IMG/VR virus record: IMGVR_UViG_3300005253_002116
Coordinates: 1 to 57,309 of that record
DNA from: a virus
Reading direction: 5' to 3' (one strand)
DNA: 57,309 nt
Made by a program: the position numbers and the translations under genes. This document shows positions 7,174 to 7,681 of the stretch, in pieces; within the stretch, counting starts at the first letter, position 1; every line of letters starts with the position of its first letter. The notes under the pieces were generated by a model that was not told the DNA's origin, ran no database searches, and saw only the letters and a list, made by a program, of their open reading frames with translations.

Positions 7174-7276
7174 AACCTTATACCCCCCAATCTGGTTCTT
7201 AGAGGCCCTTTTCTGACTATTAAACACAATAAACCATGCGACAAGACCCTAAACGTGGTGCCCCAAGGTGTCGCGG

Positions 7277-7301
7277 GGTGTCCCAAGAGGTTTGGGACAC
7301 C
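7277..7301. repeat. Inverted repeat GGTGTCCCAA/TTGGGACACC
   Basis: Perfect 10-bp arms separated by 5 nt (GAGGT). Operator-sized dyad using the same half-site as 7562-7619. Confidence 0.85.
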
Positions 7302-7355
7302 AAATCGACCCACTAAGTTATTGAAGCATAAAGACTTACGTTTTTCACACCCTCG

Positions 7356-7460
7356 AAGTGTCCCGGTGTCACAGGGAGTCTTTATACTTCCTCTTCTTTT
7401 CTAAACCTTTGTTCACTAGGAGTAAAAGAAGAAAGTACCCCCTGTGACAGGAGGACACTT
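7356..7460. repeat. Long two-part hairpin
   Basis: Outer arms of 21 nt (7356-7376 and 7440-7460) match at 18 positions, for example AAGTGTCC/GGACACTT and TGTCACAGGG/CCCTGTGACA. Inner arms TACTTCCTCTTCTTTT (7385-7400) and AAAAGAAGAAAGTA (7424-7437) extend the stem. Could be a cruciform or a structured RNA. Confidence 0.75.
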
Positions 7461-7472
7461 ATATATAAGAGA

Positions 7473-7500
7473 AGAGAGAGAGAGAGAGAGAGAGAGAGAG
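7473..7500. repeat. (AG)14 microsatellite
   Basis: Uninterrupted AG dinucleotide run of 28 nt, followed by TAGAGAG. Non-coding here; prone to slippage. Confidence 0.95.
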
Positions 7501-7561
7501 TAGAGAGTATTAGACTATATAACCTACTATTTCTAAACATGTCAATAACCCGTTATAGGGA

Positions 7562-7619
7562 TTGACCTGGTGTCCCAAAACGATGGGACAAAAACGGGAC
7601 ACTTGGGACACTAGGTCAA
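7562..7619. repeat. 17-nt inverted repeat with internal half-sites
   Basis: TTGACCTGGTGTCCCAA (7562-7578) against TTGGGACACTAGGTCAA (7603-7619), one mismatch in 17. Between the arms are two further GGGACA/GGGACAC half-sites in direct orientation. Confidence 0.85.
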
Positions 7620-7681
7620 GTGCTAGAACGGGGGGACTACTGGATTATCAATAGTGGTACTCCCTTTACCGAGGAGATTCA

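Follow-up and report, generated by a model that had tools for sequence, protein, structure and literature searches.

The window analysed here, a 57,309-nucleotide stretch of viral DNA, carries at positions 7258-7619 a set of inverted GTGTCC(C) half-sites that is probably the phage replication origin or its core, the half-sites being iterons that the winged helix at the C terminus of the phage PrimPol protein would bind. They lie in a stretch, 7174-7680, that a preliminary description made from the letters of the DNA had reported to be free of genes. A 78-aa ORF on the minus strand (7077-7313) does overlap its left edge, but is judged not to be a gene. The stretch holds six exact copies of GTGTCCC (7278+, 7294-, 7358+, 7570+, 7596- and 7605-); the count of seven given in the preliminary description is correct for the GTGTCC hexamer, the copy at 7452- being GTGTCCT. 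When up to one mismatch to GTGTCCC is accepted, 11 half-sites are found between 7258 and 7611, in three inverted arrangements named arrays A, B and C (Table 1). Within a group, half-sites of the same strand are mostly spaced by 8 to 11 bp, as in the three direct repeats at 7258, 7268 and 7278, which follow each other every 10 bp, and sites of opposite strands face each other.

The three inverted repeats first reported were all re-found: a perfect 10-bp inverted repeat (7277-7286/7292-7301), a dyad with an inner stem nested in its computed fold (7356-7379/7437-7460), whose arms measure 24 nt at 83% complementarity instead of the 21 nt initially given, and a dyad with 17-nt arms and a single mismatch (7562-7578/7603-7619). 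The adjoining (AG)14 tract, also reported before, is located at 7473-7500, between arrays B and C, and is the sole dinucleotide run of at least 9 bp in the window.

Table 1. Features of the window that bear on the proposed origin; + and - after a position give the strand of a half-site.
Feature	Positions	Strand	Description
Array A	7258..7301		7258+ GTGCCCC, 7268+ GTGTCGC, 7278+ GTGTCCC, 7294- GTGTCCC; holds the perfect 10-bp dyad 7277-7301
Array B	7356..7460		7358+, 7366+ GTGTCAC, 7452- GTGTCCT; 24-nt inverted arms, 57-nt spacer, inner pyrimidine/purine stem
B-C spacer	7461..7561		A+T up to 72%; contains (AG)14; proposed melting region
Array C	7562..7619		7570+, 7585- TTGTCCC, 7596-, 7605-; 17-nt inverted arms, one mismatch
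Second inverted-repeat family	8562-8637, 8930-9025, 9137-9286		arms like AGTGTnTCYGYYRGCGTGCCGTC
PrimPol protein, proposed initiator	15925..18207	-	760 aa; predicted PrimPol domain, MCM-like AAA+ domain and C-terminal winged helix
C-terminal winged helix of the PrimPol protein	15928..16182	-	residues 676-760; putative iteron-binding domain
DEAD/ResIII helicase	18374-19987	-	replication module (18374..24198)
Cas4-type exonuclease	20847-22199	-	replication module
DUF669	22844-23416	-	replication module
Sak4-like	23386-24198	-	replication module

The clustering is far beyond chance, as had been claimed from the outset. A search for the half-site over the whole window, a check suggested earlier, returned 10 copies of GTGTCCC, 6 of which fall within 334 bp. 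The total compares with a shuffle mean of 4.15, with 10 or more copies reached in 2 of 100 shuffles. GTGTCCC forms the densest and strongest two-orientation 7-mer cluster of the window, and a cluster of three plus three copies of any 7-mer within 400 bp was found in none of 100 simulated windows in which the local dinucleotide make-up was kept at the 1-kb scale.

The proposed initiator matches the Pfam Prim-Pol family with an E-value of 2.5e-40. Its ATPase part matches DUF3987 weakly (E 0.0018) and, among known folds, MCM-like ones (E about 1e-6 to 1e-3), the TM-scores being low over the multi-domain model. The C-terminal winged helix is predicted with a mean pLDDT of 89.0 and is also pointed to by the alignment; its fold matches are winged helices (E about 1e-3 to 5e-2). 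A Pfam RFX match was looked for in this protein and not found, the closest fold matches being other winged helices. The array ends at 7619 and the PrimPol gene at 15925, so the two are 8.2 kb apart and do not adjoin.

In the mechanism that we propose, the GTGTCC(C) half-sites would act as iterons, in sets facing each other across spacers, and the PrimPol/MCM-like AAA+ protein would bind these facing sets through its winged helix. The AAA+ rings would be loaded in opposite directions, the A+T-rich and dinucleotide-repeat spacer would be opened, and the PrimPol domain would make the primers, two forks then leaving the origin. Self-loading AAA+ initiators acting on facing iteron sets are described for the Rep proteins of SaPIs and other PICIs in two papers (PMC6092414, PMC7581432).

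According to the first of these, PICI/SaPI origins comprise two sets of short iterons flanking an A+T-rich stretch and are located directly 3' of the gene of their initiator, a mobile-element primase/helicase with a C-terminal DNA-binding part; the iteron layout is called there unique to PICIs (PMC6092414). The window resembles the origins so described by its facing groups A-C, with spacers of up to 72% A+T, and by an initiator with a predicted Prim-Pol domain, MCM-like fold and winged helix, the last being a candidate for DNA binding. It differs from that description in that there are three facing groups, that an (AG)14 tract is present, and that the array is located in a 57-kb phage record and 8.2 kb away instead of immediately 3' of the initiator gene. 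In SCCmec, the D5-type helicase Cch2 binds through its C-terminal domain short repeats beside its own gene; the site consists of only three AAGTG direct repeats, a half-site different from GTGTCC, and inverted repeats are dispensable for binding (PMC7581432).

Eight named phages with a PrimPol or primase/helicase match were compared, and none of the eight has a GTGTCC cluster. Phage Sfi11 (NC_002214) has an annotated putative rep_origin, in which facing GTTAC/GTAAC groups are arranged around (ATAA)n and a AGAGAGAG tract. The likeness with the window resides in the facing short words ~8 bp apart, the simple-repeat, A+T-rich spacer, and a similar replication module (Sak4, helicase, PrimPol and primase/helicase in Sfi11; Sak4, DUF669, Cas4, helicase and PrimPol in the window). 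In contrast, the half-site of Sfi11 is GTTAC/GTAAC where that of the window is GTGTCC, its origin abuts the primase/helicase gene gp504, and its primase and helicase are encoded by separate genes. Experimental work reportedly exists on the related origin of phage Sfi21. In Gisselle and Mcat10, a facing cluster of another word (GGTAAC and GCAGAC, respectively) is located directly after the primase gene, and Sucellus has a GTATAT cluster ~1.3 kb beyond its PrimPol gene; no convincing array was found in H188, C7, Rovert and PaeS_C1. Across lineages, the word changes and the plan is conserved. Among the papers listed by the literature searches, none describes GTGTCC iterons.

The facing arrangement recurs in other elements. 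A double-array pattern, GTGTCC-3-GTGTCC-40..70-GGACAC-2..3-GGACAC, is present in 11 viral contigs and in 19 contigs of prokaryote species genomes, the titles of the latter including Mycobacterium, Planctomycete groups, Prevotella, Thalassospira and two archaeal MAGs. Hexamer controls were run on viral contigs: TGCCTG, of the same composition, gave none, and the mirror hexamer CCTGTG, meant as a null, gave four. Since CCTGTG arrays touch a PrimPol gene (L166) or lie beside a VapE-like gene (L167), this hexamer is a partial control and not a clean null. In 16 of the 30 contigs with the GTGTCC pattern, the array adjoins the 3' end of an ORF assigned to a primase or an AAA+ helicase, either within the last 350 bp of the ORF or up to 200 bp beyond it. 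The ORFs are of AAA_25 type (L122, L127, L130, L136, L137, L144) or DUF5906 type (L129, L132, L135, L138, L139, L143, L150; that of L138 has its 3' end running off the contig), or else a PrimPol (L131), an AAA_30 helicase with a PrimPol behind it (L124) and an ORF with a primase PHROG (L151). The assignment of L130, L137, L144 and L150 was made through blastp clustering with scanned members. A Pfam RFX_DNA_binding domain forms the end of the array-adjoining helicases of L135, L138 and L143, with a weaker match in L129.

The remaining 14 arrays (L123, L125, L126, L128, L133, L134, L140-L142, L145-L149) are not beside a recognised replication gene as far as their ORFs were scanned, L126, L128, L133, L134, L145 and L148 not having been Pfam-scanned themselves; L128 is a part of G005, a structural-gene relative of the window, and L126 resembles L123. 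The 30 contigs are not independent, L122/L137, L129/L150 and L123/L126 being near-copies by eye. L133, L134 and L145, which look by eye like chromosomal repeats, and L140, L142 and L146, beside UvrB, amylase and LpxK genes, were discounted as candidates and kept in the denominator of 30. To note, the GTGTCC arrays of L140, near UvrB, and L148 are almost alike; the two contigs belong to the same Sedimentisphaerales MAG, and the arrays may be what is left of an element.

In 10 of 29 loci, a dinucleotide run of 9 bp or more occurs no further than 150 bp from the array, whereas random placement within these loci would give 1.39; the loci had been picked after some were seen. CCCTTA/TAAGGG was also observed near the arrays, in 9 of 26 array regions versus 2.2 expected. 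A single-dyad pattern, GGTGTCCCAA...TTGGGACACC, had 3 viral-contig matches in unrelated settings, about what chance would give by an estimate of our own, and was not used. The nucleotide search of annotated phages returned short chance matches only.

A search with the PrimPol gene retrieved G001 and a small 99% contig, a structural gene retrieved G003, G005, G008 and others, and a search via the 84-aa neighbour protein found no relative. G008, whose PrimPol is 50% identical to that of the window, has a GTGTCC group at 16.6-16.9 kb that includes pairs facing each other and an (AC)n tract. In G005, GTGTCCTATGTGTCC faces GGGACACATGGGACAC; a PrimPol was searched for in this record and not found, and 10 of its larger ORFs, when scanned, showed no replication domain. 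In G003, no PrimPol match and no GTGTCC cluster were found. An alignment search identified 80 PrimPol loci, and 13 full records were searched, namely G001 and 12 new ones, 47-56% identical, longer loci being preferred. None of these 13 relatives has at least four GTGTCC within 400 bp. Among the four that exceed 48 kb (G042, G043, G045, G046), G045 displays by eye, at 48.74-48.96 kb, TGACAC/GTGTCA repeats whose surroundings look like the G008 region; no clear array is seen by eye in the other three. From these comparisons, the half-site is not constant within this PrimPol lineage. Relatives devoid of the dyads had been named beforehand as evidence against an origin: the 13 PrimPol relatives do lack a tight GTGTCC cluster, but G008 has one.

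By analogy, the array is best read as working like the PICI/SaPI and Sfi11-type origins. It is not filed as a member of either, because it is not positioned beside the initiator gene and because of the 13 relatives without a tight cluster. The interpretation given in the preliminary description is partly supported. Its origin reading gains from the inverted arrays at the 3' ends of primase/helicase genes, from the G008 array and from the winged helix predicted at the end of the PrimPol protein. It obtains nothing from the cumulative GC skew, suggested as a check, which tracks gene direction, turns at ~12 kb and was rejected as support for an origin at the array. Besides the skew, the 8.2-kb distance, the PrimPol relatives, the G005 record, the 14 contigs away from recognised replication genes, the four CCTGTG contigs and the eight named phages count against the origin reading.

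It is possible, although rather unlikely, that the iteron origin is read by another phage protein, for example a small DNA-binding protein encoded within 7.7-15.5 kb, PrimPol being recruited later. The distance between array and PrimPol gene, the G005 array, the lack of the half-site cluster in most PrimPol relatives searched and the HTH protein encoded at 15016-15546 would all fit such a scheme. However, it is the primase/helicase gene itself whose 3' end carries the arrays elsewhere, and the PrimPol of the window carries its own predicted winged helix.

Less likely again is a multi-operator switch, the alternative first put forward beside the origin, in which the dyads would be occupied by a repressor, for instance the XRE-like protein (9309-9635), that controls neighbouring genes. 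In agreement with this idea, palindromic sites are clustered where no gene is present, upstream of the gene at 7682, and an XRE-like ORF, recognised by eye and with no Pfam match, lies 1.6 kb away. Yet it is a different inverted-repeat family (Table 1) that lies directly upstream of the XRE-like gene, its last copy ending 23 bp before the ORF; the array sites are not repeated at the regulator's own promoter, where the arms of this second family hold GTGTC[TC] words. Its right arms read GTGTCCGTTAGCGTGCCGTC on the opposite strand, and its copies vary by changes on both stem sides. Furthermore, no good promoter match was found within 7174-7680, and a switch leaves unexplained the arrays beside primase/helicase genes of other elements.

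The least probable reading, and a highly improbable one, is a cluster of structured RNAs or terminators with the dyads as transcript hairpins: the three dyad stretches do fold better than shuffles (plus-strand z-scores of -3.1, -4.6 and -6.8) and terminator-like stems are predicted on both strands within array B, but no Rfam family matches the window at gathering score, a hairpin needs neither half-site direct repeats at 8-10 bp nor the extra half-sites in the array C loop, and distant elements share word and spacing, as expected if a protein reads the duplex DNA.

The window has several other features. Arms of 27 bp, perfectly inverted around a 44-nt loop (14954-15051), span the 3' end of an HTH gene and form the strongest fold of the window (z -13.5). 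A tRNA search of the window found none. PrkA-DUF444-SpoVR genes are encoded, in a phage, at 615-5324; PrkA is split across two ORFs, the second with a LAGLIDADG match, and the SpoVR match covers only the first 66 positions. A second LAGLIDADG endonuclease ORF is located at 13316-13948.

GTGTCC fits the consensus GTNNCC, as does GTTACC in Gisselle, and the X-box half-site of eukaryotic RFX factors fits it as well. In a broader and quite unlikely reading, GTGTCC facing arrays would be a common origin word of bacterial and archaeal mobile elements, employed by unrelated initiator motors (PrimPol-MCM-like; D5/DUF5906 with an RFX-type winged helix; AAA_25 with an HTH), and the RFX domain would have descended from such viral initiators with its site preference kept. 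The X-box idea is based on the sites of RFX factors and on the Pfam RFX matches mentioned above.

With the PrimPol-bound origin as the favoured reading, an unannotated dyad region becomes a testable candidate origin. Facing arrays of one hexamer, ~8-10 bp apart and beside a primase/helicase gene, may provide a signature by which origins could be recognised in uncultured phages and satellites. The layout extends beyond the PICI-only statement of PMC6092414, as it is seen in phages and on contigs with bacterial and archaeal labels, and the dinucleotide tract found repeatedly near the arrays may serve for unwinding.
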